64,000 nt of DNA from Capsulimonadaceae bacterium (GTDB lineage Bacteria; Armatimonadota; Armatimonadia; Armatimonadales; Capsulimonadaceae): contig JARLGU010000031.1 of NCBI GenBank assembly GCA_031292625.1, positions 186,001 to 250,000 of the forward strand. Reading direction: 5' to 3'. A program made the translations under genes and the position numbers. Shown in pieces: positions 9,084-53,530 of the stretch (position 1 is the stretch's first letter; every line of letters begins with the position of its first letter). The notes below the pieces were generated by a model. The model did no database searches. It was given only the letters and a program-made list of their open reading frames with translations, and was not told the origin of the DNA.

Positions 9084-9111
9084 TTGCAGAGCTGGCGTGC
9101 AAAATCGAGAA

Positions 9112-9165
9112 GCCCTTTAGAACGGCTCCCGGCCACCGTGGCCGTTTTTTGAGAAAGGGTCGTCG
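9112..9165 (+). repeat. Partial R2 element with an intrinsic-terminator hairpin
   Basis: The 54 bp resemble the inner part of the full R2 elements at 23256, 36853 and 38453 (ACGGCTcccGGCC.CCGTGGCCGTTTTT then AAAGGG.CG.CGC). It contains the hairpin CGGCCA-CCG-TGGCCG followed by six Ts at 9145-9150. It could be a decayed element that now acts as a second terminator. No terminal repeats remain. Confidence 0.5.
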
Positions 9166-17514: not shown

Positions 17515-17659
17515 AGCGTGTGTGATAAATGCAGACCGCTCGCGTCACGCGTTGAACGATGTGTCCGTGAAGAACGAGCCGCCCGCTCAAGCGGACGGAC
17601 CGCGCTTTCCAGCCACGGGGCTGCCCCCATGGCTACGGCGCGGAATTGTTCCACACGTT
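17515..17659 (-). repeat. Short R2 element (145 bp) with matching terminal repeats
   Basis: Left end AGCGTGTGTGATAAA and right end AATTGTTCCACACGTT match the terminal inverted repeats of the longer R2 elements. Read on the minus strand, its start (CGCCGT..CC then CCGTGGCTGGA.AG.GCGG) resembles the first 80 bp of the R2 copy at 38453. The inner half found in other copies is missing. It fills the gap between icd and sedolisin 2; the remaining bases there show nothing else. Confidence 0.6.
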
Positions 17660-23223: not shown

Positions 23224-23255
23224 TTTCGACCGCCTTTCACTTCGCCGTTACTGAA

Positions 23256-23510
23256 AGCGTGTGTAATAAACTGGCGTATTGCGAGAAAGATTCAGGACGG
23301 CTCATGCCGCCGGGGCATTCTTTCGCCCGCGCCTCGTTCACGGCGGTGACTGACGTTGCCTCGTCAACACGCGAACGGCCTTTTGCCGCAGCCGTCCGAT
23401 CCCAGCGCACATCGTGAAGCAGTGAAAGCGATGCGCCGCCCTTTAATCAAAAACGGCCACGGCGGCCGCAGAAGCCGTCTTACAGAACCTTTCGATTTTC
23501 TACACACGCT
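23256..23510 (-). repeat. R2 element copy a, MITE-like, 255 bp with 10-bp terminal inverted repeats
   Basis: Bounded by AGCGTGTGTA (23256-23265) and TACACACGCT (23501-23510), an exact inverted pair, with CTGA close to each outer edge. Read on the minus strand it matches copies at 36853 and 38453 over most of its length, including CACTGCTTCACGATG.GCGC and GGCAAAAGGCCGT.CGC. It carries the hairpin CGGCC-GCCGT-GGCCG plus TTTTT, a terminator shape. It has no conserved open frame. The rest of the gap to 23682 shows nothing. Confidence 0.8.
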
Positions 23511-23682
23511 CTGAGCAAAGTTGAGTACACTGACCTCCATTATACCAGAGCCGCGCTCCGAATTGGCATGCGTCAATCGGCCGAAAAGGGGATATTCGGT
23601 TTGCTGCGCAAGAGAGCCTGCCGGTCCCATCGCTGATTTGCGGCACGGCAGGCCCTCAAAGGGCTCCATTGCTCTTCGCAGG

Positions 23683-26663: not shown

Positions 26664-27335
26664 ATGGCAACTGGACGCATCGCGATTATGGGCGGGGCAT
26701 TTGACCCGATCCATTACGCTCATCTGCTCTCGGCGGAAGAGGCGGCGAACGCGATGCAACTGGACGAGGTCCTGTTCATTCCGAACAACCAGCCGCCGAT
26801 TCCCAAACACGATGTCGTTTCGCCATCCGATCGCGCCGAGATGGTCCGGCTGGCGATCGCCGGCAACCCGCTGTTTAAGCTGTCGACGATTGAAATCGAT
26901 CGAGAGGGGCCGTCCTACTCGTACGACACCGTCCGTGCGATAAGGGCCGCCCGTCCGTCGATCGAGCGGCTCTTCTTCATCGTCGGCGCGGATGCCGTCC
27001 TGACCATGCCGAATTGGTACCGGATCGACGACCTTGCGCGCGAGTGCGAGTTTATCGTCACGACGCGGCCTGGCTTCGATCGCGATGCGCTGCTTGGTCA
27101 GCTTCCGGCTGCGCTAGAGACGCGCGTCCACCCTTTGACGATCCCGCATGTCGATCTCGCGTCCACCGTTCTGCGTGAGCGGATCGCGGACGGCCGCGGG
27201 GTTCGCTACTTGACGCCCGACGCCGTCGTCGGGTACATCCAGGAGAAGGGGCTCTATCGGACACTTGCCCCGCCCAACGATTATGCAAATTCTCGGAGTC
27301 ATACCCGCCCGTCTGGCATCCACGCGCCTTCCTGA
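26664..27335 (+). CDS. nadD: Nicotinate-nucleotide adenylyltransferase
   Basis: Cytoplasmic NAD biosynthesis enzyme that transfers AMP from ATP to nicotinate mononucleotide. 223 residues with the nucleotidyltransferase motif GGAFDPIHYAHLL (about 10-22), the FIPNNQPPIPKHD loop and FFIVGADAVLTMPNWYR. The usual C-terminal ISSTxIR is here ASTVLRERIADG. The C-terminal 17 residues overlap the start of kdsB by 53 bp and are not conserved-looking. The rsfS gene that often follows nadD is absent here. Confidence 0.92.
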   Translation: MATGRIAIMGGAFDPIHYAHLLSAEEAANAMQLDEVLFIPNNQPPIPKHDVVSPSDRAEMVRLAIAGNPLFKLSTIEIDREGPSYSYDTVRAIRAARPSIERLFFIVGADAVLTMPNWYRIDDLARECEFIVTTRPGFDRDALLGQLPAALETRVHPLTIPHVDLASTVLRERIADGRGVRYLTPDAVVGYIQEKGLYRTLAPPNDYANSRSHTRPSGIHAPS

Positions 27336-28014
27336 CAAGGTTCTGCGCGATATCGCCGGCAAACCGCTCGTCGTTCGCGTCTACGAAGCTGCCAAACGCT
27401 GCCCCCAATTGACCGATGTCGTTATCGCGACCGATGCACAGGTTGTGGTCGACGCCTGCCGCAGATTCGGGGCCGACGCGATGATGACATCGCCGCGCCA
27501 CCAATCCGGCAGCGACCGCCTTTTCGAGGTGCTCGAAGCGCGCCCCGCCGATGTGTACGTCAATATCCAGGGCGACGAACCGCTGCTGCGTCCCGAGCAC
27601 GTCTCGGCGCTGGTGGATCCATTCCTGGCCGGCGGCGGCGAAATCCAGGTGACGACGCTCAAAGTTGCGATTAGCGATGAGGAAGCAGCGGATCCGAATG
27701 TCGTTAAGGTCATCACGGATACATCAGGCCGCGCGATCTATTTCTCCCGCCTGCCGATCCCGTACGATCGCGATGGACGCGGCGTGCAGCGGTTCAAGCA
27801 CCAGGGCCTGTACGCTTACCGGCGGGATGCTTTGGCGAAGTTCCACAGCCTTGAGGCGACGCCGCTTCAGTTGACCGAATGCCTCGAACAGCTCAAGCTG
27901 CTTGAAAACGGCATGCCGATCCACGTGTACGAGACCCCGTTCGACACCGTGGGCGTCGACACCGAACAGGACCTCGAACGGGTCCGGCGCATTTTCGAGG
28001 GAATGACTGCGTGA
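27283..28014 (+). CDS. kdsB: 3-deoxy-manno-octulosonate cytidylyltransferase (CMP-Kdo synthetase)
   Basis: 243-residue enzyme that activates Kdo with CTP for lipopolysaccharide core assembly. Begins MQILGVIPARLASTRLPDKVL, the diagnostic CTP-binding N-terminus. Further motifs: SGSDRLFEV, VNIQGDEPLL, and RFKHQGLYAYRRDAL near 160-175. The open frame starts six codons earlier, but ATG 27283 is the family start. It overlaps the tail of nadD, which implies translational coupling. Its product feeds the WaaA enzyme encoded at 37106-38437. Confidence 0.95.
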   Translation: MQILGVIPARLASTRLPDKVLRDIAGKPLVVRVYEAAKRCPQLTDVVIATDAQVVVDACRRFGADAMMTSPRHQSGSDRLFEVLEARPADVYVNIQGDEPLLRPEHVSALVDPFLAGGGEIQVTTLKVAISDEEAADPNVVKVITDTSGRAIYFSRLPIPYDRDGRGVQRFKHQGLYAYRRDALAKFHSLEATPLQLTECLEQLKLLENGMPIHVYETPFDTVGVDTEQDLERVRRIFEGMTA

Positions 28015-28082
28015 TCTCTCGCGCGTGAGCCGGCAGAAGGCATTAGCAGCCATTCCGCCGGCCGCGCGTCACGCGACGGAAT

Positions 28083-28778
28083 CTACGCAAACAGCTCGGG
28101 AAGGTCGGTCCAGACGACGGCAGGATCGGCCGAGAGGATTGCGATCTTCTTCTCGAACGCCTGCCAGTCGTCTTCGTTCATGATCTCGTAGCTGTGTCCC
28201 CAGAAGTAGAACACGCCTCCCGATTGTTTTACGTGCTCAAAGCGCGCCCAGAAATCCGGCGAATGGAAGTGGCAGTTCGAGTGGAACGCCATCGGGTCCG
28301 CCGGCGGGAATACGTCGGCGACATTCTCGGTCGTACGCGCGTAAAGATGTCCGGCCTCGCGAACTGCGTTGCGAACCGCTTCGTTGTGCGTGCCGAACGG
28401 GTACGCGAACCCCAGGACTGGGTAACCGAAAATCTGCTCGAGCTGATCGCGTCCTTCGCGGATCTCGCGCACCGCGTCCGCGATTGGGATCGATTCCAGG
28501 TGAGGGTGGGCAAGAGAGTGATTGGCGATCAGGAAACCCTCGTAGACTGAAACCAGCTCGGGTCGGGAGATCCGGTACACCTCTTTGACGTCTTTGTATT
28601 TCCATCCGCTTTGACGCTGCGGACCGTGCGAGGCCGCGTTCAGGTTGAACGATCCCTTTGCGCCGTATTTGCGCAGGATCTCCATGACACGAATGTCGTC
28701 GTTAACGCCGTCGTCCCAGCATTGGACGACCCTGATGGTTTTCGGCGCCGTCTGGGCGTCTTGAGAAGAGTTGGACAT
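28083..28778 (-). CDS. Polysaccharide deacetylase (NodB-like)
   Basis: 231-residue carbohydrate esterase of family 4 type. The metal-binding set is visible: D-D in WDDGVNDD (about 20-27) and HxxxH in NHSLAHPHLES (about 92-102), with the later strand LGFAYPFGTHNEAV. No signal peptide is seen, so it may act in the cytoplasm or on small substrates. It has its own promoter region with a long dyad at 28810-28831, and converges on kdsB. Confidence 0.85.
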   Translation of the reverse strand: MSNSSQDAQTAPKTIRVVQCWDDGVNDDIRVMEILRKYGAKGSFNLNAASHGPQRQSGWKYKDVKEVYRISRPELVSVYEGFLIANHSLAHPHLESIPIADAVREIREGRDQLEQIFGYPVLGFAYPFGTHNEAVRNAVREAGHLYARTTENVADVFPPADPMAFHSNCHFHSPDFWARFEHVKQSGGVFYFWGHSYEIMNEDDWQAFEKKIAILSADPAVVWTDLPELFA

Positions 28779-28809
28779 GGGCTAGAACTCGCTTGATTTG
28801 AATTGAAGG

Positions 28810-28831
28810 TCAAACGCGCTTGCGCGTTTGA
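28810..28831. promoter_or_regulatory. 22-bp dyad in the leader of the deacetylase gene
   Basis: TCAAACGCGC-TT-GCGCGTTTGA has perfect 10-bp arms. It lies 32 bp upstream of the deacetylase start and downstream of a -10-like TATCAT on the minus strand, so it is placed to act as an operator or as an RNA hairpin. No neighbouring regulator gene is obvious. Confidence 0.5.
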
Positions 28832-28962
28832 GGAACGTGGTTATGATACACCAATCTGGACTGCGCTTAGCGCTCCAAACGCTGTAAATCGCGCCAAGAA
28901 ACCCGCCGTCCGCGCGCTTCCTCGGGCGATTGGGCGTGGAACCGGCCTCCCCTTCGACGAGC

Positions 28963-28984
28963 AAAAAACGGCCCGCCCAGCCGT
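28963..28984 (-). terminator. Rho-independent terminator after the MoxR operon
   Basis: On the minus strand the stem ACGGC/GCCGT with a 7-nt loop is followed by TTTTTT. It sits 41 bp beyond the moxR stop. Confidence 0.6.
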
Positions 28985-29024
28985 AGACGGCATTCTGAAT
29001 CGTCGAGCGTAATCCCCTGACAAG

Positions 29025-30173
29025 TTATCTCGGCACTTCCAGCCGGTCTACGATTGCCTCGATGATGCGATCGGCGGACACGCCTTCGATTTCCGCCTCG
29101 GGTTTCAGGATCAGGCGATGGCGAAGCACGGTCGGCGCAACTTGCTTGATGTCGTCCGGGATGACGAAATCGCGCTCGCGAATCGCCGCGAGCGCTTTGC
29201 TGACCTGCAGCAGCGCGATCGATGCGCGGGGGCTTGCGCCAAGGACGATCTGGTGGTGCTCTCTTGTCGCGCCAACGAGGGCGGTGATGTACTTGAACAG
29301 CGCCTCTTCAATCCGCACCGTCTTCACTTCCCGCCGCGCCCGCGCGATAGCCGCGCTGTCCGCGACGACGCGGATGCCGACCGTCGACAGGTCGTTGGGA
29401 TCGAAGCCGTCCTGGTAGCGTCGAAGGATGCGCTGTTCGTCGTCTTGCGACGGGTACGGCACCACGATTTTAAGCAGGAAGCGGTCAAGTTGCGCCTCGG
29501 GAAGCGGATACGTCCCCTCGAACTCCACGGGGTTTTGCGTGGCGAACACCATGAATAGCTCCGGCAAATCAAACGACTCGCCGTCGATAGTCACGCGGCC
29601 CTCCTGCATGGATTCGAGCAACGCCGCCTGGGTTTTTGGCGGCGTCCGGTTGATTTCATCGGCGAGCAGCAGGCCGGTAAAAATCGGCCCGCGCTTAAAG
29701 TGGAACTCGCCGCTCTGCATATCATAAACGCGTGCGCCAGTAATGTCGGAAGGCATCAGGTCCGGCGTAAACTGAATGCGGCCGAAGTCCGCGCCGATCG
29801 CGGCGGAAAGCGCCCGCACGAGCAGCGTCTTCGCCGTGCCAGGGACACCTTCGAGAAGCACGTGTCCTTCGGCGAACAGTCCTGCCAGCGACGCTTCGAT
29901 GACCGCTCCCTGGCCGACGACCGCCTTCTTCACTTCGGAGCTAATCGCCGCCGCGAGCGCCGCCACCGAACCTCCGGCAACAGGCGATCTCGGCTCCGGC
30001 TGCAGGGACGAATACGGGGCCGGCTGCGCGGCGTCCACTGGCTCGTCCAGCGCGGTTCGCGTATCTGGAGCCAGCTTGCCCTGATCGGCAAGAGCCTGCA
30101 GGTGCGCGACGTAATCCGGCTCGACCGGTGTTTCTCCCTGGTCCGGTGCGTTCTCTGAGATCTGATCAGTCAA
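29025..30173 (-). CDS. MoxR-family AAA+ ATPase
   Basis: 382-residue chaperone-like ATPase. The first 80 residues are a proline/acidic-rich leader. Walker A LLEGVPGTAKTLLVRAL (about 130-146), Walker B LLADEINRTPPKTQAALLE (about 189-207) and sensor-1 FATQNPVE follow. MoxR proteins act with von Willebrand-domain or membrane partners to mature enzymes or envelope complexes. The start is a TTG at 30173, overlapping the upstream gene by 8 bp, so it is translationally coupled. It is the last gene of the operon with the DUF4350, DUF4129 and membrane proteins. The DUF58 protein normally beside moxR is missing. Confidence 0.92.
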   Translation of the reverse strand: MTDQISENAPDQGETPVEPDYVAHLQALADQGKLAPDTRTALDEPVDAAQPAPYSSLQPEPRSPVAGGSVAALAAAISSEVKKAVVGQGAVIEASLAGLFAEGHVLLEGVPGTAKTLLVRALSAAIGADFGRIQFTPDLMPSDITGARVYDMQSGEFHFKRGPIFTGLLLADEINRTPPKTQAALLESMQEGRVTIDGESFDLPELFMVFATQNPVEFEGTYPLPEAQLDRFLLKIVVPYPSQDDEQRILRRYQDGFDPNDLSTVGIRVVADSAAIARARREVKTVRIEEALFKYITALVGATREHHQIVLGASPRASIALLQVSKALAAIRERDFVIPDDIKQVAPTVLRHRLILKPEAEIEGVSADRIIEAIVDRLEVPR

Positions 30174-31467
30174 TGCTCAGTTCCTTTCTAAAGCGCTCCA
30201 TCTGGCGCACGAGGTCGAGGAGCTCGTTTTCGGTGAGCGAACGGGTTTCGATGTGTCGCTCGCAGCGGCCGAGCAGCTTCTTGAGCTCGACCTCGTTGAC
30301 GTGTCCACGTCGTCCGGCCGCCTCGGCGAGCGCGGCGAGCGAGAGATCCGTCGGCACGTTGAGTCGCGTACAGAGGTCTCGCAGAAATTGCCGATAGATA
30401 AAATCAAGGGCTGGCGCGGCGGCGTGCGCGCCGCGATAGAGCGCGGCAAGCGACGCGACATATTCACCAGAGTTGCGGCGCTCGTTCGGTCCTGCCGGCC
30501 GGGCTGTGCCAAATCGCGGAGCGAGCACGAAAACCATCACGATCACGGCAAGCACCAGTTGAAGGCAGGCGCTCTGCGGGCCAAAACCCAGGGCGCTCCA
30601 AATGGTTCCTTCGCCGGCGATCTCGCCATGATGATACTCGTCGAAGAGCGCCTTCTGGCCCGGCTTGACGGAATCCGCGAGAATATTGCCAAGAAAAACC
30701 GCGTTATCGGCTCGGGCGAGGTTGCGATTGGACGCAAAAAAACCGTCGGCAACGAAGATTGCGCGTCCTTTGCCCACCGGCAAAACGCTGACGACCGGTT
30801 CGCCGCCGATTGGCCCTTTTCGTCGCAGCGCTGGGGGATTGCCGAACAGATCCACCGTGCTTCCCGCTATCCGGCGAATACGGTGCCCGCCGTGCAATTG
30901 AATCAAGTTCACCCCGCGTACGATGTTCACGGGCTGTTGAGGACCGTAGCTTGCTAAGCCGCCCTGGGCCGCAAGAGATTCTCCGATCGTGACGCCAAAC
31001 TCGTCGCCAAAATCGCCTCCGGGCAGGTTTGCGGCGGGCTGCCCCTGCGCCCTCGCCGCCGGAAGATCGTTGGTCAGAATCAGCGCCGTTCGGCCAGCCG
31101 CTAGCCAGGATTTGAGCGCAACGGCGTCGTGCCCGTTCAGCACGCCAGGCGATGTCTTGGAGCGCGGTCCGCCGCTGGAATCCGATCGCGTCTGCGGTGC
31201 GGCGACGACCAAAAGCGATGCGTCGGCAGGCAGTCTGCGCCAATCGTCGCGGTTCACGTCGACTTTGTAGCCGAGGCGCGATGTCAGCTCGAACAAACCG
31301 CGCATGCCGGAGCCGCGATCGTTGTAGATCGACGGATCTGGCTGCAAGTCCGCGCCGACCATGCTGCCCGATCCCGTGTCGTTCACCGAAAGGATTATCC
31401 CGGCCACGATAAACACGAGCATCAAGATCCCGATGCCGGCAACCTCTTTTGTGAAAAAATGTTTCAG
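30166..31467 (-). CDS. DUF4350-type membrane protein of the MoxR operon
   Basis: About 433 residues: an N-terminal membrane helix (VAGIGILMLVFIVAGIILSV), a periplasmic/GATase-like DUF4350 domain (about 35-260), a second helix near 280-300 (CLQLVLAVIVMVFVLA) and a helical C-terminus. The first standard start codons (TTG 31425, ATG 31422) would cut the first helix and have no ribosome site. A CTG at 31467 overlaps the stop of the upstream gene as CTGA and has GAGG 7 nt before it, so I take that as the start. Role: probable partner of MoxR in the envelope. Confidence 0.75.
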   Translation of the reverse strand: MKHFFTKEVAGIGILMLVFIVAGIILSVNDTGSGSMVGADLQPDPSIYNDRGSGMRGLFELTSRLGYKVDVNRDDWRRLPADASLLVVAAPQTRSDSSGGPRSKTSPGVLNGHDAVALKSWLAAGRTALILTNDLPAARAQGQPAANLPGGDFGDEFGVTIGESLAAQGGLASYGPQQPVNIVRGVNLIQLHGGHRIRRIAGSTVDLFGNPPALRRKGPIGGEPVVSVLPVGKGRAIFVADGFFASNRNLARADNAVFLGNILADSVKPGQKALFDEYHHGEIAGEGTIWSALGFGPQSACLQLVLAVIVMVFVLAPRFGTARPAGPNERRNSGEYVASLAALYRGAHAAAPALDFIYRQFLRDLCTRLNVPTDLSLAALAEAAGRRGHVNEVELKKLLGRCERHIETRSLTENELLDLVRQMERFRKELSID

Positions 31468-32573
31468 AGGGTGACCTCGCGTTGGGTTTGCAGGGCCTCG
31501 TACTGTCGAACGATCCGATCGTAGTCCCCGGCGGACGCTTGATGGAACCCATACCAGATGCAGTCGAAATCGCGGGTCGCAGGGAGCAGCTGATCGTATA
31601 GGGCGGGGAACTTGCCGTCGTTCACCGCCGCCAGGTACTCCCAGTTCGTCAGCGAGCGCTTGAGCTGCACGATGCCCTCGGAATCGAGCCGGACGAGGAT
31701 CGCGACATAGACCAGCCGGAACGCGGAGCGGTAATCGCCGCGCGATGCGTACCTGCGCGCAAGATCGAATAGCCTTTCGAAGTCCCGCAAAGCCACGAGA
31801 ACTGCTTCGTCCGCGCCGATTGCCAGATTCGTCTCAGGCGCAGTCCGGTTGCGCCCATACAGACGCTCGCGCATCCAATTGCTGATCGCGACGGCAAGCC
31901 CCACGAAAAATGCGATCAATCCCGCACGGAACCAGATGATGATGGCCACGGCCAGCAGCGCGATCGCAATCAAGATTGTCCGTGCAATGTGCTTGTTAAA
32001 AGCAAACGGCTTAAAGTGGACGCGCGGGCCTTTGAAATGCTTCGCCCAGAAATCGTCCCAGGCCTTTTGCCACTTCGCGAGGACCTTGTCCCACTTCGTG
32101 GGTTCGGGGACCGGAATCGATGAATAGGCCTCGCCGGAAAGCACCTTGCGCATCGCGGCGGCTTCGCGCTGAACCTGTCCCGGGGACGCGTGGCCGTCCA
32201 GACGCAATCCCTGGCGAGTCGCGACAATGTCGTCCCGGATCTCGCGCAGCAGGGTTGGCCTCGCCGCCGCCGATGCCGATTCCGCGAACGTCAGGCGCGA
32301 CATGAGACCGAGATTGTCGACGAAGACCAACGATGAGTCGCCGGGGAATATGACCTTGCACCTAAGATAGCGGGACAGGACGGCTGGGGCGGTGCGCGTA
32401 TTGGCTGTTCGGTCGCGATTGACCGCCGCTTGCACGCGGGCGAGCGCGCCATCGTAGCCCGCGCGGGTAAGCGTGGGCAATCCCTGCGCGCTTGCGGGGC
32501 CAATCAGAGCGGCGCAAACGACCGTCGCGGATAAAAGGCATTTGCCGAGTCGGCCTATCGATACACAGCTCAT
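31464..32573 (-). CDS. DUF4129-domain membrane protein of the MoxR operon
   Basis: 369 residues with a signal peptide (1-29, ending GPASA). A periplasmic region of about 160 residues follows, then one or two membrane helices near 195-230 (ARTILIAIALLAVAIIIWF). The cytoplasmic C-terminal DUF4129 module has typical pieces LARRYASRGDYRSAFRLVYVAIL and the DYDRIVRQYEAL ending. DUF4129 proteins are standard members of moxR clusters and of transglutaminase operons. It overlaps both neighbours (4 bp each side), so the four genes form one operon. Confidence 0.82.
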   Translation of the reverse strand: MSCVSIGRLGKCLLSATVVCAALIGPASAQGLPTLTRAGYDGALARVQAAVNRDRTANTRTAPAVLSRYLRCKVIFPGDSSLVFVDNLGLMSRLTFAESASAAARPTLLREIRDDIVATRQGLRLDGHASPGQVQREAAAMRKVLSGEAYSSIPVPEPTKWDKVLAKWQKAWDDFWAKHFKGPRVHFKPFAFNKHIARTILIAIALLAVAIIIWFRAGLIAFFVGLAVAISNWMRERLYGRNRTAPETNLAIGADEAVLVALRDFERLFDLARRYASRGDYRSAFRLVYVAILVRLDSEGIVQLKRSLTNWEYLAAVNDGKFPALYDQLLPATRDFDCIWYGFHQASAGDYDRIVRQYEALQTQREVTL

Positions 32574-33466
32574 GGCTGCGCCGCCTTGTCTGTCGTCGCG
32601 GTCTGGTCGATCGGCGGGTAGCCGAGCGAGCGCGCCAAGAGTTCGATGTCGTAGCCTTCCCTGCGAATGCGCAGGTCGAAATAGAACATCGTCACCACGC
32701 AGACCTGAAACGGCAAAAGCAACATGCAGGAGAGGCCGAACGCAATGGACTCGGCGACTTCCTTATGCAGAACGAGCAGCGGCATGAACGGAGCTGCGGA
32801 GTCGACGGCAAGATTGGCGACGATCTCGACCGCGCCGACTACCGCGGCGACCAGCACTCCCCAGAGGCACCAGTGGACAATGTGCCCGCCCAAAATGAAC
32901 GATCCGTTGCCGCTCGCAAGTTTCCATGAGCGTTTGAGCGGCTGATATACATCCCGCACGCCCTCGTTGAGCATGACATGTAGAAAGAGTTGCAGTGGGA
33001 TTGACAGCAAGATCACGAGAATGCCCGGCAGGACGCAAGTCATCGTGCCGCCAATCGTAGCGGCTGCGTACAGGGCAAGGAGAAGCGTCGCCTGTATGGT
33101 CACCGGCAGAGCCGCCCGGTAGGCCGTTGCCAGATTGACCGGCTCGTCCTTGTAGCGCGCGCAGGCGGCGGCCACAAGGGCGCTTAAGAGAAGCGCCGTG
33201 GAAAGCGCTGACGTGCCAAGAGTGAGCGCCGTCCAGCCCATGTCGGTTCGGAGAGCGTTGCCAAGGTTTGTCAGCCCGTCGATGCCCGTTCCCATGAGCG
33301 GCCGCAGAACGGGGGCTGCGACATAAGCGCCGATGCCGACGACGGGAACGTAGACGATCGCCGTAATCAGCAGGAACAGCGCAAAGTTGCTTTTGTAAAG
33401 ATCGAACGCTTCGTCGAATAGGTCGAGCAACCCCATCGGGCGATACCGGCGTCCATCGAATCTCAC
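32570..33466 (-). CDS. Polytopic membrane protein, first gene of the MoxR operon
   Basis: 298 residues with about six membrane segments (for example LFLLITAIVYVPVVGIGAYV, ALLLSALVAAACARY, VLPGILVILLSIPLQLFLHVMLNEG). It starts with a short amphipathic stretch, MGLLDLFDEAFDLYKSNF, that resembles DUF975/YciC-like and glycerophosphodiesterase membrane domains. No catalytic motif is seen. The 4-bp overlap with the DUF4129 gene (ATGA) ties it to the operon. Function unknown; it may be an envelope partner of the MoxR system. Confidence 0.72.
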   Translation of the reverse strand: MRFDGRRYRPMGLLDLFDEAFDLYKSNFALFLLITAIVYVPVVGIGAYVAAPVLRPLMGTGIDGLTNLGNALRTDMGWTALTLGTSALSTALLLSALVAAACARYKDEPVNLATAYRAALPVTIQATLLLALYAAATIGGTMTCVLPGILVILLSIPLQLFLHVMLNEGVRDVYQPLKRSWKLASGNGSFILGGHIVHWCLWGVLVAAVVGAVEIVANLAVDSAAPFMPLLVLHKEVAESIAFGLSCMLLLPFQVCVVTMFYFDLRIRREGYDIELLARSLGYPPIDQTATTDKAAQP

Positions 33467-33589
33467 GTTAGTTCCTTACCCGCTCGTATTCAAGCGCTTG
33501 CGCAGAGCGACGGCAGGTTCTCGAGCGCGTTTCGGCTTGCGGACCGCATCCTCGGGGCAGGGAGGTCTTGCAAACGCTGCCTAACCGCT

Positions 33590-34357
33590 CTACGACTTGG
33601 CCACTTTGACCAGAGCCGGCCGAATCAAGCGCCCGTGAAGCGTGTACCCGGCGCGCAACTGTGCGGTGACGGTTTCGTCGGGGGCATCCGAGCCTTCTTC
33701 CACCATGACCGCTTCGTGGACCGAGGAATCGAACGGTTCGCCGACTGCGGGAATCGCTTGCACGCCTTCTTTGGCGAGCACATCGACGAACTTGCGATAG
33801 ATTGCCGTAACGCCACTGATAAGCTGATCGTAGCTCTCGGTTCTTGACGCCGCATCGATTGCCAGTTCAAAGTCGTCGACGAGCGGAAGGATTTCCTTGA
33901 TCAAGCGCTCCGCTGCGTTCGCGCGGACCCGCTTGAGCTCCTCCTCGGCGCGGCGGCGAACATTGTGCAGGTCCGCGACGGCACGCAGGTGCTTGTCCTT
34001 CTGATTTTCGACTTCCGCCAGAAGAGCAGCTTCGCGGGTTGCGAATTCTTCTTGCGCGGCAGCCGCCTGGGCTTCAAGCGCCAGGAACTCGTCGCTTGCC
34101 GTCACATCCTCTCCGGAATCGCCGGCAGGCGCTTTCTCTTCGTTCAACTTGAACCGCCGTTTCCGCGGTTGGCTAAAGAGTTGTTCGAGCGACTCCGCGG
34201 AGAGTGGTTGATCGGACAGCTCGATCGGCTGACGCGCATTTTCGCCCAGGGGATCTTCGTTCGCCGACTGGACAATAACGGGCCGCATATCGGGGCTTTC
34301 CATCGGTTCCTCTTGCGACGGTTCATCGTCTTGGACGGGATCGGAATTATAGCTCAT
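33590..34357 (-). CDS. grpE: GrpE nucleotide exchange factor
   Basis: Cofactor that releases ADP from DnaK. 255 residues, longer than usual because of an acidic, disordered N-terminus (1 to about 95). The long coiled coil (about 95-150, with LRAVADLHNVRRRAEEELKRV) and the C-terminal beta domain with the family signature (VGEPFDSSVHEAV, then GYTLHGRLIRPALVKVAKS) follow. The gene stands alone: no dnaK, dnaJ or hrcA is beside it. A TATAAT -10 lies about 65 bp upstream on the minus strand (34421-34426), with a small CTCG/CGAG dyad just after it; no CIRCE element is seen. Confidence 0.95.
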   Translation of the reverse strand: MSYNSDPVQDDEPSQEEPMESPDMRPVIVQSANEDPLGENARQPIELSDQPLSAESLEQLFSQPRKRRFKLNEEKAPAGDSGEDVTASDEFLALEAQAAAAQEEFATREAALLAEVENQKDKHLRAVADLHNVRRRAEEELKRVRANAAERLIKEILPLVDDFELAIDAASRTESYDQLISGVTAIYRKFVDVLAKEGVQAIPAVGEPFDSSVHEAVMVEEGSDAPDETVTAQLRAGYTLHGRLIRPALVKVAKS

Positions 34358-34456
34358 ACTTCCATAGCCTTCTTATCGCGCGTCTGCAATTAATTCAGTA
34401 CCGCTCGTAATGTTCGAGATATTATACCTAACTGCATGGGCATGCCATCGCGTTTA

Positions 34457-34717
34457 CGGCCTTTCGCCCGGTGGAACGCATTGCATCTATAACTGTTAGC
34501 AGCGGCGCGAGTCCGGTCCTGAAAGGGCCGGCCTGTGTTGAGAAAGCCCGTGAACGGGCCTAATCGGTAGACGGCCAGCATTTTCGTGAGCCGGCAGCCC
34601 GATTGATTGGGGGTGACATCTCAGGACGGTCGTTCACGGCCGGAAACCGAGCCAATATCGGTGACAATCGTCTCTATTCATAGATGCGATCGCCCGGCCT
34701 TTCGCCCGGTGGAACGC
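34457..34717 (+). repeat. 23-bp direct repeats flanking R1 copy b
   Basis: The same 23-bp sequence, beginning CGGCCTTTCGCCCGG and ending TGGAACGC, occurs at 34457-34479 and 34695-34717, directly outside the two ends of R1b. Copy a at 13004 has no such flanks. It may be a duplication made at insertion or an older local repeat. Confidence 0.75.
34477..34693 (+). repeat. R1 element copy b, MITE-like, 217 bp
   Basis: Same sequence as R1 copy a at 13004-13220 but in the opposite orientation; the two differ at only about 15-20 positions by eye. The right end AGATGCGATCGC is intact (34682-34693). The left end (GCATTGCATCT) has lost part of the repeat. It occupies most of the gap between grpE and the next gene and has no conserved reading frame. 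Confidence 0.8.
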
Positions 34718-34724
34718 GTCGCTC

Positions 34725-35234
34725 CTAGCCTCGTTCCGCACCGCTGGCCGCGACAAGCGTCGCCCTTGCGTCTTGCAGCGCCGGCTCCATCTCGCCGGAA
34801 CCAGCCGCGATCGCCCTGTCGATGGAAGGAATTGCTTCGCTTGCCGCAAGTTCGGCGGCAGTCCCCGCGCCGATAACGGCTAGCCAGGGGTCGTGAGATT
34901 CGATTAGGCGTACGGCGACGTGGTTGACCGTGGGGCGAAGGGGGAGAGGCAGGTTTCCGGTATATTCTTTGAGCTGGACGGGGAGCCTCCGCGCTTCGTC
35001 CGCGTAGCGCCGGCGGTTGAGGTGCGTGAGGGTCGCGCGGATTTCCGCCATGACATCCGCGTCGTCGGCCGATTCGCGCGGCGTTGTTGCGATCTCCAGG
35101 GCGACAGCGCTGAAGAGCGGCAACTCCGCGTCGCGTCGCGTGCGCCGCTCGATCTTAATCCTTGCCAGAGCGCGCGACGTGAACGTGATCGCAAGAATGC
35201 CGCCCGCCATGATCATTCCGGTGCTTGTCAGCAT
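34725..35234 (-). CDS. Hypothetical protein with N-terminal membrane helix
   Basis: 169 residues: a short N-terminal helix (MIMAGGILAITFTSRALARI, about 7-26), then a charged helical region with an E..L..L.RRRYADEARRL pattern and an Ala-rich C-terminus. Codon use and GC match neighbours, and it lies same-strand upstream of grpE beyond the R1b element. I do not recognise the family, and nothing around it suggests a role. Confidence 0.55.
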   Translation of the reverse strand: MLTSTGMIMAGGILAITFTSRALARIKIERRTRRDAELPLFSAVALEIATTPRESADDADVMAEIRATLTHLNRRRYADEARRLPVQLKEYTGNLPLPLRPTVNHVAVRLIESHDPWLAVIGAGTAAELAASEAIPSIDRAIAAGSGEMEPALQDARATLVAASGAERG

Positions 35235-35321
35235 GGCGACCTATTGTACCTCGCGCCGGGCGCTGCGGGAAGGCGCGTTGCAAGGCACGGATATTCCTCG
35301 AAAACGGCAGCGGGAAATCGG

Positions 35322-35918
35322 TTACCGAACTCGGCGCGGCCGGCTGGGCACGACGCCAGGCGGCAGCGTGTTCTGTTGCTGCTGTTGCTGGGCCTCTCGC
35401 AGGGCCTTCTGGGCATCGAGATATTGCTGGGTGCGCTCCATCTCGTCGCTAACGTACCAGATCTCCCTTTGGCCGGCTGGCGGTGTTGCCTTGGCAGCCT
35501 TTTCGCTGACGACCGTAATGGCGGAGGTTTGCGTGATCAGTGTTGGGTTACCCTGCTGCCCAAGCCACTGAAGAGTCCTGACGATATCGTAGCACTGATC
35601 TCCCGTAGGCACTGGACGCTTCGCAGGCAGGTACAGGCGCGCCCAAGTCAGACCGGGCTCGACGCTTCTCAGGAAGACAAGCATCTCGTCCATGCTTGCA
35701 AACGATACCTTGGCTGGGCCCATATGGCCGTTCACCGTACCGTCGATCACCATGGTCAGGCCGCTCTCGGTCTGTAGGACCTGCAGAGCATCGGCAACCC
35801 TCGCTTGATCCTGTGAGATCGTTAGCGTCAAAGGCGGATAGGCGTCCGCACGGGCGACCGCAAACGAAGATGCGGCTACTGTGATGGCCGCGATAAAACA
35901 CAGGCGAGATATTCGCAT
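35322..35918 (-). CDS. Exported protein with secretin/TonB short N-terminal-like domain
   Basis: 198 residues with a signal peptide (1-26, ending ARADA). Residues about 30-90 follow the STN/secretin-N pattern: a strand, ADALQVLQTESGLTMVIDGTVNG, and then a helix that closes on LVFLRSV. The rest is a linker with a poly-glutamine run (seven Q, near residue 180) and a proline/arginine tail. Such domains form rings in secretins or contact TonB; here it stands alone and could be an accessory periplasmic piece. The assignment is pattern-based and moderate. Confidence 0.6.
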   Translation of the reverse strand: MRISRLCFIAAITVAASSFAVARADAYPPLTLTISQDQARVADALQVLQTESGLTMVIDGTVNGHMGPAKVSFASMDEMLVFLRSVEPGLTWARLYLPAKRPVPTGDQCYDIVRTLQWLGQQGNPTLITQTSAITVVSEKAAKATPPAGQREIWYVSDEMERTQQYLDAQKALREAQQQQQQNTLPPGVVPSRPRRVR

Positions 35919-35951
35919 AAGCTGTACCCTTGGTAGCGTCGGGAAGGCGTC

Positions 35952-36512
35952 TTAAACACCCACCTCGATGTCGGCGTCGGATTCGGTCGCGTCGTCGTCC
36001 TCCGGCTCCGATCCGCGAATCGGCGGAATAAACCGGCGGCTCACTTTTACGAGCTCTCGCAGCCGGCGGACTTCACGATCAACATCAATCAGCGCAATTT
36101 CCTTGCTGTCCAGCGCGTTGATGATTCTTTCCGCAAGGCGGACGCTCGCGAGAGCGACGATTTCGTTGTCGTAACCAACCGTCACATGAAATCGGCCGCG
36201 CGGGTCGATCGACCAGTTCCACTCGGTTTCGCCCGAGATCGATACGTCCGCGTAGATTCCCCGGCGGACCTGCTTCTGAATTTCAAGGAGCAAATGCTCG
36301 AAAAGGTGAGGAATCTCGGTTGCAAGAGCCTCGCGCCGGAACGAGTGGCCCTGCTCGTTAAAGCATCTTTGCGCCGCCAGGTACGGGAACATGCGAAAGA
36401 GGATGCGCGGCATGTTCGGCGCGTGCGTCGTTAGATACGCTTCTGTCTCCGGGATCTCGACAGTCAGTTTGACTTTGCCTGACTCGTCGAACGCTATCTC
36501 TGTCACGCGCAT
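35952..36512 (-). CDS. Free-standing homologue of the cyanophycin synthetase N-terminal domain
   Basis: 186-residue soluble protein that follows the N-terminal domain of CphA closely. It has a P.LFRMFPYLA helix, then a TEIPHLFEHLLLEIQ segment equal to the CphA GHIVEHVALELQ block. It continues with GETEWNW (CphA GRTRET), a strand ending VTVGYDNE (CphA VVIEYQNE), and the helix ASVRLAERIINAL. The ATP-grasp and Mur-ligase domains of CphA are absent. The last 25 residues are acidic and probably disordered. It could bind amino-acid polymers or act as a scaffold; no cyanophycin genes lie in the window. Confidence 0.6.
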   Translation of the reverse strand: MRVTEIAFDESGKVKLTVEIPETEAYLTTHAPNMPRILFRMFPYLAAQRCFNEQGHSFRREALATEIPHLFEHLLLEIQKQVRRGIYADVSISGETEWNWSIDPRGRFHVTVGYDNEIVALASVRLAERIINALDSKEIALIDVDREVRRLRELVKVSRRFIPPIRGSEPEDDDATESDADIEVGV

Positions 36513-36551
36513 GGTGATTTCCGAGACCTAAGGATTGATGAGCGCGGTCCC

Positions 36552-36581
36552 TTGACAAGCTGTTGTACGCTTGGATATAAT
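36552..36581 (+). promoter_or_regulatory. Consensus sigma-70 promoter of tRNA-Asn
   Basis: TTGACA (36552-36557) and TATAAT (36576-36581) are both perfect, separated by 18 bp and ending 12 bp before the tRNA. Confidence 0.9.
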
Positions 36582-36593
36582 GAAGTCCGTTGT

Positions 36594-36669
36594 TCCCTGG
36601 TAGCTCAATTGGCAGAGCGCCTGGCTGTTAACTAGGATGTTGCAGGTTCGAGTCCTGCCCAGGGAGCCA
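36594..36669 (+). tRNA. tRNA-Asn (anticodon GTT)
   Basis: 76 nt including encoded CCA. Acceptor arms TCCCTGG/CCAGGGA pair fully. The D arm (AGCTC...GAGC), the anticodon stem CCTGG/CTAGG around CTGTTAA (anticodon 36627-36629) and the T arm (GCAGG TTCGAGT CCTGC) are all present. A small GCGATGA/TCATCGC hairpin follows at 36684-36702, without a T-run. Confidence 0.95.
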
Positions 36670-36852
36670 ATTTCAAGCCTCACGCGATGACCGCCTCATC
36701 GCAGCCCCGCACTCCAAGTATACCATAGGTATTTTGACCGTGCCAGATCATCAAACTCTATTTTGATTTCGTTCCAATTCGTTGTCGAGTGAAACAATAC
36801 GAGTTCGTTCGATGGCAAACGTTGCGGCGAAGTTCCTTTCGTTGATCGGTTT

Positions 36853-37103
36853 AGCGTGTGTATATAAATTGAAACGCCTTGTAAGACGGCTTCTCGGCCG
36901 TCGTGGCCGCTTTTGAAAAGGGCAGTTACTGCGTTTCACTGCTTCACGATGTGCGCAGGGATCGTACGCTGGCGGCAAAAGGCCGTACGCATGTTGACGC
37001 GGCATCGTCAATCACCGCCGTGAACGAGGCGCGGGCCAAAAAAACGTCCCGGCGGCACGAGGCGTCCTGAATCCTTCTCGCAACGCTGATTGATTACACA
37101 CCA
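36853..37103 (+). repeat. R2 element copy b, MITE-like, about 251 bp
   Basis: Begins AGCGTGTGTA (36853-36862) and ends near TTACACACCA, touching the stop codon of waaA at 37106. It follows copies a and c block by block: a CGGCC..CGTGGCCG hairpin, CACTGCTTCACGATGTGCGC, GGCAAAAGGCCGTACGC, then CCGTGAACGAGGCGCGGGC. It has the same orientation as copy c on the other side of waaA. The stretch 36703-36852 shows only a small ATACC/GGTAT dyad. Confidence 0.8.
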
Positions 37104-37105
37104 AC

Positions 37106-38437
37106 TCAGGGATTGGCCTTCTTGCTCGCGTCCCAAACGCGATCAATCGTTTCCACGGCTGTAGCCGTCGCGCCCTTGCTTTTCTCGAAGAGCTCCTGCG
37201 CGGCTTTCCCCATCTTCTGAGCGCGCTCCGCATCCGATAGGAGCCCTGAGAACGCTTCAGCCATTTCTTCCGCGCGCGCTGAAACATCCCCCGGCGCAGT
37301 CAATCGGACGATCGCATCGGCTTCGAGAAATTCGTCCACCATATTGCCGAAGTTTTCCATGTGAGGCCCCACGACGATCGGCTTGCCGAACAGGGCCGGT
37401 TCCATGATGCTGTGCCCGCCGGCCGGCGCGATCGTTCCGCCGACAAACGCAACATCCCCGAACTGGTACGCCGCCGCAAGCTCGCCATGCGTATCGAGCA
37501 GCAGCACCTCGCTCCCGGACACCGGAGCGCCGCTTGAGCGCTGCGACACGCTGAAGCCATGCGCCCGGGCGAGCGCCGCGACGGATGCCGCCCGTTCGAT
37601 GTGGCGAGGGGCAAGGAGCAGACGCACGCCCGATGTCTCCGGCGCTTTGCGCAGGATCCGCAGCGCGGCCAGTACGACCTCATCCTCGCCCTCGTGCGTG
37701 CTTCCCGCGACGATCAGGGGGCCTTGAGCGCTCGTGATCCCAAGCGCCTCGTCCAGCGCGTCGCGCTGAGCGGATGAAATGTCCTTTGCCGCTACATCGT
37801 ACTTCATGTTGCCGCTTACGCGCAGGCGGCCGCCAGGCGCGCCCATCAGGCGGAAACGGTCGCCGTCGACCTGGTCCTTCACGAGAATCGCGTCGTAGCA
37901 TGCCAGCACGGGAGCGAGCAAGGGAGCGGCGTAGCGGTACCAACGAAACGATTTGGCGGAAATGCGGCCATTGACCAGCACCACCGGAATATTGCGCCGC
38001 CGCGCTTCCCGCAGCGTGTTCGGCCAAATCTCCGTATCTACGATCACGAGGATCGACGGCTGAACAAAATCGAGTACCCTGCGGACGACCCCGGGAAGGT
38101 CGATCGGGAAATAGAAAATCCCATCGCCGGCATACTTCGCGTATCGCTCGCGCGCGACATTTTGGCCGCCCGCCGTGATGGTCGAGATCACCAGTCGCGC
38201 ATCGGGATACCGCGTTGTCAGAGCCTCGACAAGCGGCTGAATGGACAGCGTCTCGCCCACCGAACAGGCGTGAATCCAGATCGTCTCGCGCCCGTCCCCG
38301 CGCAGCGCATCCGGCAGCCGTCCCGCTCTTTGAGCCAGTCCAGGAAGCGCTTTCTTCTTGAACACGGCGCGCCACCAAAGCACGGGCGCCATTGCCACAA
38401 GCCAAATCGTTAGGAGAATAGTGTAGAGCAGATACAT
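37106..38437 (-). CDS. waaA: 3-deoxy-D-manno-octulosonic acid (Kdo) transferase
   Basis: 443-residue inner-membrane GT30 glycosyltransferase that adds Kdo from CMP-Kdo to lipid A. The N-terminal anchor helix (YLLYTILLTIWLVAMAPVLWW) is followed by the GT-B fold with the signatures TIWIHACSVGETLSIQPLVEAL (about 53-74), DTEIWPNTLREARRRNIPVVLVNGR (about 134-158), SGNMKYD and the C-terminal nucleotide-binding GGHSIMEPALFGKPIVVGPH. It partners functionally with kdsB. It is bracketed by two R2 elements in direct orientation, 2 bp after the stop and 15 bp before the start, and has a weak ribosome site. Confidence 0.95.
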   Translation of the reverse strand: MYLLYTILLTIWLVAMAPVLWWRAVFKKKALPGLAQRAGRLPDALRGDGRETIWIHACSVGETLSIQPLVEALTTRYPDARLVISTITAGGQNVARERYAKYAGDGIFYFPIDLPGVVRRVLDFVQPSILVIVDTEIWPNTLREARRRNIPVVLVNGRISAKSFRWYRYAAPLLAPVLACYDAILVKDQVDGDRFRLMGAPGGRLRVSGNMKYDVAAKDISSAQRDALDEALGITSAQGPLIVAGSTHEGEDEVVLAALRILRKAPETSGVRLLLAPRHIERAASVAALARAHGFSVSQRSSGAPVSGSEVLLLDTHGELAAAYQFGDVAFVGGTIAPAGGHSIMEPALFGKPIVVGPHMENFGNMVDEFLEADAIVRLTAPGDVSARAEEMAEAFSGLLSDAERAQKMGKAAQELFEKSKGATATAVETIDRVWDASKKANP

Positions 38438-38452
38438 GGTTGAGGTCCGTTA

Positions 38453-38750
38453 GCGCCTGTGTAATAATCTCGCGCCGTTGCCCACGGGGTCGATCCCGTG
38501 GCTGGAGAGTGCGGCAAGCCCGCTAAAGCCGGCTCCGCGGCCGCCGTGGCCGTTTTTGACAAAGATGCGTCGCAGCGCTTTCACTGCTTCACGATGCGCG
38601 CTGGGATCGGACGCTTGCGACAAAAGGCCGTACGCGTGTCGACGAGGCATCGTCAATCACCGTCGTGAACGAGGCGCGGGCAGAAAATCGCCCCGGCGGC
38701 ACGAGCCGTCCTGAATCTTGTCCTCGGTACGCCCAATAACGGCACACGCT
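38453..38750 (+). repeat. R2 element copy c, about 298 bp, upstream of waaA
   Basis: Starts AGCGCCTGTGTAATAA and ends GGCACACGCT. Its right two thirds match copies a and b; its left 80 bp instead match the short element at 17515-17659, so it is a composite of two modules. It contains the hairpin CGGCCGCCGTGGCCG followed by TTTTT. Transcription of waaA must start inside or at the edge of this element. From 38751 to 38903 I see no gene or other repeat. Confidence 0.8.
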
Positions 38751-38903
38751 CCTAGCGTCATTATGACGCGTTAAGCAGGGGATAATGCCGTTGAAACGAT
38801 ATCGCTCTGGCATTCTTTCGCAGCCCATTCGCGGGCTGCCGGGATGCTTTGCGCAAATGATCGGAAATCGGCATTCTGCAAGAGAATGGTGTTTTCGACG
38901 CAC

Positions 38904-38955
38904 AAAAAAACGGCCTCCCTCTCTCCCGATGTTGCCGGTCGGGAAAGAGGGGGCC
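38904..38955 (-). terminator. Strong Rho-independent terminator after the E1 dehydrogenase
   Basis: Long arms GGCCTCCCTCTCTCCCGA and TCGGGAAAGAGGGGGCC with a short loop. On the minus strand the hairpin is followed by TTTTTTT. It lies about 55 bp past the E1 stop. Confidence 0.85.
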
Positions 38956-39009
38956 GGCGGGTTTGGCCCAGATGCGCGGACAATGACGTCCGCGCACGGG
39001 CCGGCCCAG

Positions 39010-41484
39010 CTAGACGCCGCTAGCGCTGCGGCGAAGGAGATCCGCAGTGTCCGTGCGGCGTACAACCGTGTATCCCGGCAGGCGGACGATGTGCTCGTGA
39101 ATGGCGTCCAGGAAGTCCGCGGTGAACGGGAAGAAGCTGTCTTCGATCTCGTCCGGCGGGGTGATCCAGTTGCGGGCGCCGAGAACGACCGGCGGGGCGT
39201 CCAGGTAGTTGAACGCGAACTGACCGATCTTGGCGGCCATCGTTTGCAAGACGCTGCCGCGCTCGCAGGCGTCGGAGGCCAGCAGGATCTTGCCGGTCTT
39301 CTTGACCGACTCGATCACCAGACTGTAGTCAAACGGAACGATCGATCGCGCGTCGATGACCTCCGTGGAAATGCCGTACTTCTCTTCGAGGACCTTGGCC
39401 GCCGCGAGCGCCCGGTAGACCGTTGCGCCGATGCTCAGAATAGTCAGGTCCTTGCCCGCCTTCTTGACATCCGGCTTGCCGATCTCGATTTCGTAGTAGC
39501 CGGTGGGAACGCCCTCCGTGTGGAACACTTCCACCTGGTTGTACAGACGCTGGCTCTCGAAGAAGATCACCGGGTCGGTGCCGCGCAGGGCCGAGTTCAA
39601 CAAGCCCTTCGCGTCGTACGGCGTGGCCGGGAAGACGACCTTAAGGCCGGGAATATGGGCGACCAGCGCGGTCCAGTCCTGGCTGTGTTGTGCGCCGTAC
39701 TTAGAGCCGACCGAGACGCGCATCACGACCGGCATCTTGAGGACGCCGCCGGACATCGATTGCCACTTCGAGAGCTGGTTGAAGATCTCGTCTCCCGCGC
39801 GGCCCAGGAAGTCGCAGTACATAAGCTCGACGAGCGCGCGTCCGCCTTCGAGGGCGTAGCCGACCGCGGTGCCTGCGATGGCGGCTTCCGAGATCGGGCT
39901 GTTGAACAGGCGATGATACGGAAGCGCTTCGGTCAATCCGCGATAGACGCCAAATGCGCCGCCCCAGTCGCGGTTTTCTTCGCCGTAGGCGATGAGCGAC
40001 GGATCGATCGAAAAGCGATGCAGAACCGACTCGAACACGGCGTCCTTGAAGCTAACCGCGCGGGTCGCCGGGAGGGACTTGCCGGATTCGTCCAGGCCGA
40101 AGCGGGCGAGCTTGGCGATCTGCTTGACGCGCGGGTTCTCGGCGTTCGGGATCGAAATCTCCGCCGGTTCGCCGGTGGTCTCGAAAGCGTCGACGCTCTG
40201 GTTGGAGAACATGGTGGATTCGAGCAGCCCGCCGGTGCCATACAAGTTGGCGCGCGGCGAAATCTCGATGTCGATCGCCTTCTTGTAGGCCTTAAGAACC
40301 AGGGCGTCGCCCCGTTCCCAAACTGCGGCGACGTCGGTTTCGCCGAGCAATCCGGCATCCACCAGCGATCCGCCGTAAGTTTTGACGGAGTCGATATCCT
40401 GCCACTCCTCGACTTCCTTCTTCTCGCGGTAGGACGATGCGTCCGACGGCGAGTGGCCGCTAAATCGGTAGGTGACCGTATCGAGCAGGACCGGACCGTC
40501 GCCGTTCGCGATGATCTCGCGCTTGCGGGCAATGGCATCGATTACGGCGAGCGGGTTGTAGCCGTCGATGCGCTCCGCGTGCATCTGGTCGGGGGTCAGG
40601 CCAGCGCCGAGTCTGGCGAGGACGCCGAAGCCCATCGTTTCGCCGACCGGCTGCCCGCCCATGCCGTAGAAGTTGTTTACGAAGTTCATAATCAGCGGAA
40701 GACCGCCGCGATGCGCCTCGTCCCACAACGTCTTAAACTGGTCCATCGTCGCGAAGCAAAGGCCTTCCCAAACCGGTCCGCATCCTAGCGACGCGTCGCC
40801 GATATTGCAAATGACCAGCCCCGGCTTCTTGTTGACTTTCTTGAACAACGCAGCGCCGACCGTAATGTCGCCGGAGCCGCCGACGATCGCATTGTTGGGG
40901 TAGACGCCGAACGGGGTAAAGAAGGCGTGCATCGAACCGCCCATTCCCTTATTGAAGCCAGCCTCGCGCCCAAAGATCTCGGCAAGCGTTCCGTAGATCA
41001 GGTAGTCGATCGCAAGATCCTTGACCGATCCCTTGGCATCCTTCTCGACAACGCGAAGGGTCGCGCCGTCGAAGAACGTCTCCATCGTCTTGAGGAGCGT
41101 CGCATCGTCGAGCTTTTCGATTGCGGAAAGGCCCTTGGCAAGAATCTCGCCGTGGCTGCGGTGACTGCCGTAGATGTGGTCGTCGACGCCGAGCAAAAAG
41201 GCCTGACCCACCGAGGCCGCTTCCTGGCCGATGGAAAGGTGGGCGGGACCACGGTGGTTGTATTCGACTCCGTGGAAATTGCCTTTGATCTTGACCTCGT
41301 TAAGCATGGTCTCAAATGTCCGGATGATGACCATGTCCCGGTGGATTCTCAAGAGGTCTTCGCTAGCAAAGCGATCTAATTCAGCGCTCAGCTTGCGTTG
41401 ATACTGGTTGATGGGGATCGGTTTGAACTCGATCTGCCCTGGTTTCCGCACGTCCTGCGGATGAATCATGAGTGATTTTGGCAT
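39010..41484 (-). CDS. Fused alpha-beta E1 component of a 2-oxoacid dehydrogenase
   Basis: 824-residue thiamine-diphosphate enzyme that decarboxylates a 2-oxoacid and hands the acyl group to a lipoyl E2. The alpha part (about 40-430) has [18 protein letters not shown] and the ThDP site [13 protein letters not shown]...NNFYG. The beta part (about 480-810) has [43 protein letters not shown] and [21 protein letters not shown]. Alpha and beta subunits are usually separate genes, so this is the fused form. No E2 or E3 is nearby. Upstream on the same strand are citrate synthase and threonine dehydratase, so the substrate could be 2-oxobutyrate; pyruvate and branched-chain oxoacids remain possible. 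Confidence 0.88.
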
Positions 41485-53264: not shown

Positions 53265-53530
53265 CACTGTGTGATATATCAAATCGCCTCGTACTACGGC
53301 TCCTCCCTGCAATAGAGCAAAGAGTTCGGAGCCTTCTCTGGCCGGCCCTTCGGCGCTCTCAGGGCGATGAGCTTGTCGAACCGGCGGGCCATATTTCGTG
53401 CGCTGAAGACGGCGATTTTGTCGCAAGCAGCTGGCTGTGATTAACCTGGAGCGAAGCGACCACGAAAAAATACCCCGGCGGCATGAACCGTCTTGAATCC
53501 GTCTCGCAACGCCGATTAATGGCACACCTT
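53265..53530 (+). repeat. R2 element copy e, divergent, about 266 bp
   Basis: The right third (ACCCCGGCGGCATGAACCGTC then CTCGCAACGCCGATTAATGGCACACC) matches copies a-c. The left end CACTGTGTGATATA resembles their left terminal repeat. The middle is different and carries the pairing block GGCCCTTCGGCGCTCTCAGGGC. It appears to be an older or recombined element. The gap continues to the araA leader at 53732. Confidence 0.55.

Follow-up and report, generated by a model that had tools for sequence, protein, structure and literature searches.

A Kdo transferase gene flanked on both sides by a modular MITE in a Capsulimonadaceae genome: separation of waaA from kdsB and a bracket probably formed by independent insertions

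In the 64,000-nucleotide stretch of Capsulimonadaceae DNA analysed here (the window; C60:186001-250000 of a 5.77-Mb draft genome in 65 contigs), the gene waaA lies between two copies, A and B, of a short repeated element, R2, and apart from kdsB, its usual upstream neighbour in family relatives. This arrangement is best explained, with a probability of roughly 0.7, by a genomic rearrangement that parted waaA from kdsB and by two independent, old MITE insertions. R2 would be a high-copy, non-autonomous MITE that inserts between genes at C-TNA-G and duplicates TNA; two of its copies would have landed independently, long ago, one on each side of waaA, and a separate rearrangement in the host lineage would have parted the gene from kdsB. 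Against this explanation, the relocation and both R2 copies coincide at waaA, which a causal link would explain as well, and separate insertion of A and B cannot be proved from target duplications this short and decayed. If correct, it distinguishes a real evolutionary change, in which one lineage ceased to have kdsB and waaA paired, from an apparent cassette of the kind that dense MITEs yield by chance. The features concerned are listed in Table 1.

Table 1. Positions of waaA, the R2 copies and neighbouring features in the window.
Feature	Position	Strand	Details
R2 fragment, left arm	9101..9164	+	
R2, third full copy of the window	23255..23511	-	Ends nearly intact, with matching TCA target duplication
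kdsB	27283..28014	+	Normally lies just upstream of waaA in family relatives; 3' side (28015-28082) free of R2
tRNA-Asn	36594..36666	+	Next to gene 35952-36512
R2 copy A	36852..37105	+	Single-module copy lying 3' of waaA; decayed at both ends (TTTAGCGTGTGT on the left, CACACCAAC on the right)
waaA (kdtA), Kdo transferase	37106..38437	-	443 aa; NCBIfam and Pfam profiles
waaA stop codon TGA, TNA target site at the right end of copy A	37106..37108	-	Reads C-TCA-G on the plus strand
Left arm of copy B	38451..38530	+	Resembles another dispersed short repeat
R2 copy B	38453..38751	+	5' of waaA; non-standard left arm
Intrinsic terminator of the upstream pyruvate dehydrogenase gene	38890..38965	-	Hairpin and U run; z -5.07; 0/200 shuffles as good
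Fused pyruvate dehydrogenase E1	39010..41484	-	Present neighbour of waaA
R2 fragment, right arm	53465..53527	+	

Profile searches identified the gene between the two copies. The only NCBIfam models matched by the waaA product were those of lipid IV(A) Kdo transferase, all under their curated cut-offs (best WaaA model 346 bits, against a cut-off of 438), and Pfam Glycos_transf_N (PF04413) scored 197.5 bits against a cut-off of 23.9. One match was obtained across the assembly, with no second or partial waaA in the genome, and among named relatives Capsulimonas sp. RYN_270 has the closest waaA (56%). As the original prediction had it, waaA is the sole content between two R2 copies of the same orientation, with no other gene in the interval. 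The limits then given for the two copies were borne out on one side: 15 bp do separate copy B from the waaA ATG (38435-38437), but the gap of 2 bp described after the stop codon disappears, as copy A ends at 37105, directly at that codon.

R2 copies align end to end across about 256 nt and range in size from about 256 bp to 718 bp, with no transposase or other coding gene. Their ends read TNA-GAGYGTGTGTAA, with GAGYGTGTGTAA as an inverted terminal repeat at both ends; with one mismatch allowed, this repeat had 90 matches in the genome against 2 in the reversed control, and it formed facing pairs in the copies inspected. In 24 of the 55 full-copy rows both flanks read TNA, and the middle base was identical in 20 of these 24 (16 of 20 once repeat views had been taken out by hand); the target site is C-TNA-G, and TNA is duplicated. 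By its ends, its target duplication and its absence of coding sequence, R2 is a MITE, and we take its TNA duplication to resemble that of some IS5-family elements. The element consists of a left part of 112 nt, a module of 74 nt whose 19-nt linker gives a 93-nt period, and a right part of 70 nt; the number of modules ranges from one to six, and the longer elements keep the same ends. The linker contains CCGGTC-CGT-GACCGG, and the module pattern, with up to 3 mismatches, matched the genome 228 times and the reversed control not once. A similarity search of the genome with R2 gave 46 matches from the best 40 of 229 candidates, and 31 copies or fragments were found in the 864 kb sampled, window included. 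Among 76 distinct ungapped modules (consensus 113-186), variation was lowest in one of the three phases (0.046, against 0.086 and 0.095), a bias that may hint at a former coding role or may be due to chance.

R2 is confined to the host lineage among the genomes searched. All six family members were negative, and across 40 relatives, with up to 17 candidates scored per genome, nothing was found but one 42-base match (E 7.9e-4) in the genome of another family. None of the six PF01609 (DDE_Tnp_1) loci carries a matching terminal-repeat pair, and profile searches of the 65-contig draft with PF13359 and PF13586 gave no match, three transposase families having been tried in all. As no autonomous partner was found, we can only infer that R2 was mobilised by an unseen transposase acting in trans; the partner itself may have been lost.

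No published account of MITEs in Armatimonadota, or of IS1031-type TNA MITEs, was found in the open-licence literature. Bacterial MITEs, in the features that one account sets out (PMC10969869), resemble R2 in being short, non-coding, intergenic and high in copy number, with inverted terminal repeats and a short target duplication, but the assembly that holds R2 yielded no autonomous element to match it. The BOX elements of Streptococcus pneumoniae, as outlined in PMC3049150, likewise have two end modules, variable tandem middle modules and insertions between genes; size, host and phylum differ, however, and R2, with the part lengths given above and its TNA duplication, is BOX-like in plan only. 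BrickBuilt of Porphyromonas gingivalis is also a MITE with an internal tandem repeat and, according to the relevant part of PMC4596501, always intergenic; its repeats are 23 nt long without spacer and it lies 49-591 nt from genes, whereas the period of R2 is 93 nt and the element frequently abuts stop codons.

Copies A and B, in the same orientation, are 85% identical over 193 nt, with an ungapped common core of 109 nt at 90%, and copy A is 82-88% alike to other R2 copies, so that the pair is no closer than the rest. At the right end of copy A the sequence reads ...CACACCAAC-TCA-G, in which TCA is the complement of the waaA TGA stop; neither end of this copy was caught by the one-mismatch terminal-repeat search. 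The R2 consensus aligns with copy B at 38526-38719 only, positions 38453-38525 being without a match to it, and the likely target duplication of this copy is TTA (38450-38452) / CTA (38752-38754). With their ends decayed, the outer flanks of A-waaA-B read TTA or GTT at the left of copy A and CTA at the right of copy B. A repeat like the left arm of copy B is also present at window positions 17600-17655, at L226:17064-17112 and at L220:11633-11670. The RNA fold of copy A is hardly better than that of its shuffles (z -1.03; 28/200 as good), and tRNA was the only match in an Rfam scan of the window.

The spacing of the two copies at waaA is expected by chance. Among the matches listed, merged into 93 places (the module being represented by 100 of its 228 matches, and copy B having been added by hand), two adjacent gaps were shorter than 1.5 kb, that at waaA being one of them, against 2.2 expected, and nine were shorter than 6 kb, against 8.6; these expectations presume random placement and rest on an incomplete list of R2 copies. 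In addition, a second single gene, at L249:13389-14483, is enclosed by two R2 pieces that share a direction and lie about 1.35 kb from each other. With close pairs at the level of chance and another gene bracketed, the bracket around waaA is what a dense element gives. The second locus (L249:13184-14899) adjoins a gene that resembles mnmG by eye.

These observations bear on the idea that A-waaA-B is a mobile cassette, which the original prediction had raised and which the locus does little to sustain. A composite cassette carried from the kdsB site, through a transposase acting in trans or through recombination between A and B, would account for the fact that waaA did part from kdsB and that both copies point in the same direction and enclose the gene tightly, and MITE-bounded cassettes are known to have moved other genes, as one part of PMC10969869 relates. 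It is nonetheless very unlikely: no trace of R2 is present 3' of kdsB, A and B are as diverged from each other as copy A is from other copies, the ends of copy A escape the one-mismatch search, no outer target duplication is clearly legible, the genome holds no second waaA, and the gene at L249 is bracketed alike. TIME-COMPs (PMC13367494) and a mobile insertion cassette with a MITE (PMC5444012), so far as those descriptions extend, resemble A-waaA-B in having a gene between two non-autonomous copies, but A-waaA-B gives no sign of movement as a unit, its ends are decayed, and its content is a vertically inherited core gene. Because the kdsB side is without R2, the A-B pair is no closer than others and the ends are decayed, nothing links R2 to the move, and R2 would have had no causal role in the relocation of waaA. 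The bracketing would instead result from MITEs crowded densely into short intergenic gaps, with no working cassette involved.

The separation of waaA from kdsB emerges from comparison with relatives. In all five family relatives with upstream DNA (G001-G005), kdsB lies directly upstream of waaA on the same strand; the contig of G006 stops 105 bp from waaA. The pair is also present in three Acidobacteria loci with upstream DNA (L062-L064), and kdsB was found beside waaA in none of 23 loci from other Armatimonadota (L038-L060, flanks up to 1.5 kb). In the window, waaA on the minus strand lies 9 kb from kdsB on the plus strand, and no R2 is present between kdsB and its next gene. The present neighbours of waaA belong to groups that exist without it elsewhere: tRNA-Asn and gene 35952 are paired in all four relatives having that gene (six were searched), waaA not being found beside the pair, and citrate synthase and pyruvate dehydrogenase E1 are grouped in G001 and G005, with no waaA beside E1 in the stretches examined. 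Given the pair in relatives and these conserved waaA-free groups, the waaA-kdsB pair is broken in the host lineage. Of the relocation proposed earlier, the movement of waaA relative to kdsB therefore stands, and its connection with R2 is not supported. R2 is absent from six of six family members and the kdsB-waaA pair is ancestral there, which is compatible with either order of the two events. The product of gene 35952-36512, paired with tRNA-Asn here as in the four relatives, is cyanophycin-synthetase-N-like, and a sigma-70 consensus (12/12) lies at 36552-36581, ahead of tRNA-Asn.

Flipping 28015-38437 on paper brings waaA next to the 3' end of kdsB and onto its strand, the called genes of this block lie on the minus strand, and copy B sits at the distal breakpoint that such an event would require. 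A single inversion with breakpoints at 28015-28082 and 38438-39009, the latter marked by copy B, would thus part the two genes in one step, yet it appears highly improbable: the proximal breakpoint is without R2, so that R2-R2 recombination was not the cause; some 0.7 Mb separate kdsB-waaA from the tRNA-Asn/35952 pair in G002; and genes of the window block were not found downstream of waaA in the relatives examined, the predicted ancestral order remaining unseen. An inversion between two R2 copies was separately considered as the cause of the move and rejected, there being no R2 3' of kdsB and the inverted copy at 23255-23511 not bounding that gene. Alternatively, kdsB may have been the mover, to its place after nadD, with waaA staying in place amid a reshuffled neighbourhood. 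For two operon genes flanking kdsB-waaA in G001 and G003, the host genome gave no match, which accords with this alternative and leaves no third marker for which gene stayed. We consider it distinctly unlikely, however, as both groups that now adjoin waaA, tRNA-Asn/35952 and the pyruvate dehydrogenase cluster, are conserved in relatives without waaA, and nadD lies <8 kb from kdsB in G002.

Phylogenetic analysis placed the window sequence within the family clade of waaA (support 95/90), as sister to G002 and G006 (100/98). waaA is vertically inherited within the family, and a foreign origin of the gene in the host species alone was ruled out by the tree. Congruence of the waaA phylogeny, named earlier as a point that would speak against mobility, was found within the family, where it counters foreign acquisition; an internal move still fits. 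The family clade joins Acidobacteriota, not other Armatimonadota (forks 97/87 and 96/96), and this grouping suggests that the kdsB-waaA pair may have been transferred at an older stage, to judge from the waaA tree.

The position of both copies against the ends of waaA was compared with that of R2 elsewhere in the genome, with genes predicted by a simple codon-usage model trained on the window. The 55 full-copy rows comprised 48 distinct copies after subtraction of seven repeat views (L001, two in L004, L014, L201, L203 and L208), and copy B was left out of this count for its odd left arm. No full copy (0/48) lies inside a predicted gene. The nearest gene ends (n=82) were 40 stops and 42 starts; on the stop side, 17 of 40 neighbours lie within 20 bp and six at -1 to 0 bp, copy A among the six, and on the start side 10 of 42 lie within 44 bp. 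The placement of a start against a mobile end, previously called unusual, is thus no oddity in this host genome. Insertion at C-TNA-G leaves TNA in two copies, so that a stop codon of the form TGA or TAA can be regained, and a C-TNA-G site that overlaps such a stop would be usable without loss. Following this target rule, copy A may have inserted at the waaA TGA, with the stop restored by the TNA duplication. A modular MITE in a Capsulimonas relative would then be able to hit stop codons precisely and leave them intact, and such stop-codon-sparing insertion would help explain how elements of this kind crowd compact genomes.

The terminator of the upstream pyruvate dehydrogenase gene is strong, so waaA needs a promoter of its own between 38437 and 38894. 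Within this interval copy B fills 38453-38751, and the 143 bp above it (38752-38894) are free; a promoter inside the element, which had been put forward as a necessity, is possible but not forced, since the free stretch is also available. That copy B serves as a functional waaA promoter or 5' leader and was kept for that is possible but doubtful, and would be compatible with independent insertions. It is favoured by the need for a start in an interval made up mostly of copy B and by the fact that BOX (PMC3049150) and BrickBuilt (PMC4596501) elements can affect or drive expression, as portions of those reports indicate. However, a sigma-70 scan, which says little in this phylum, gave no minus-strand match there, the free 143 bp could equally hold the promoter, and R2 copies favour neither starts nor stops (42 and 40 neighbours).

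The shared direction of A and B has a counterpart across the genome. Adjacent R2 copies agree in orientation in 47 of 56 cases (93 places, high-similarity, among the matches listed), and all nine pairs <6 kb apart among those matches have the same orientation. Concordance of orientation within contigs lay above all 20,000 shuffles (93 places, among the matches listed), 18 of 23 exact-module copies agreed (shuffle p 0.006), and in 19 of the 20 stretches sampled the majority direction was opposite to the GC skew. Replication effects on transposon orientation are described in part of PMC5371812. Intact R2 might be oriented by chromosome replication, with wrong-way copies lost or truncated, and with the modules acting as polar motifs or the transposase being guided by the fork; on this view, the common direction of A and B at waaA would be one consequence of a rule that holds across the genome. 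This reading is rather unlikely. In the wider 864-kb sample, the rule was followed by 15 of 31 copies or fragments (full 7/10; partial 8/21), truncated copies faced the wrong way in 13 of 21 cases, and on the count of 15/31 the rule was downgraded as a firm explanation of the direct pair at waaA. Should R2 orientation follow replication, the element would offer a tractable case of fork-guided MITE insertion. Elsewhere in the draft, R2 ends lie <600 bp from the starts of contigs C32, C47, C48, C56 and C65, and R2 arrays may therefore break the host assembly.
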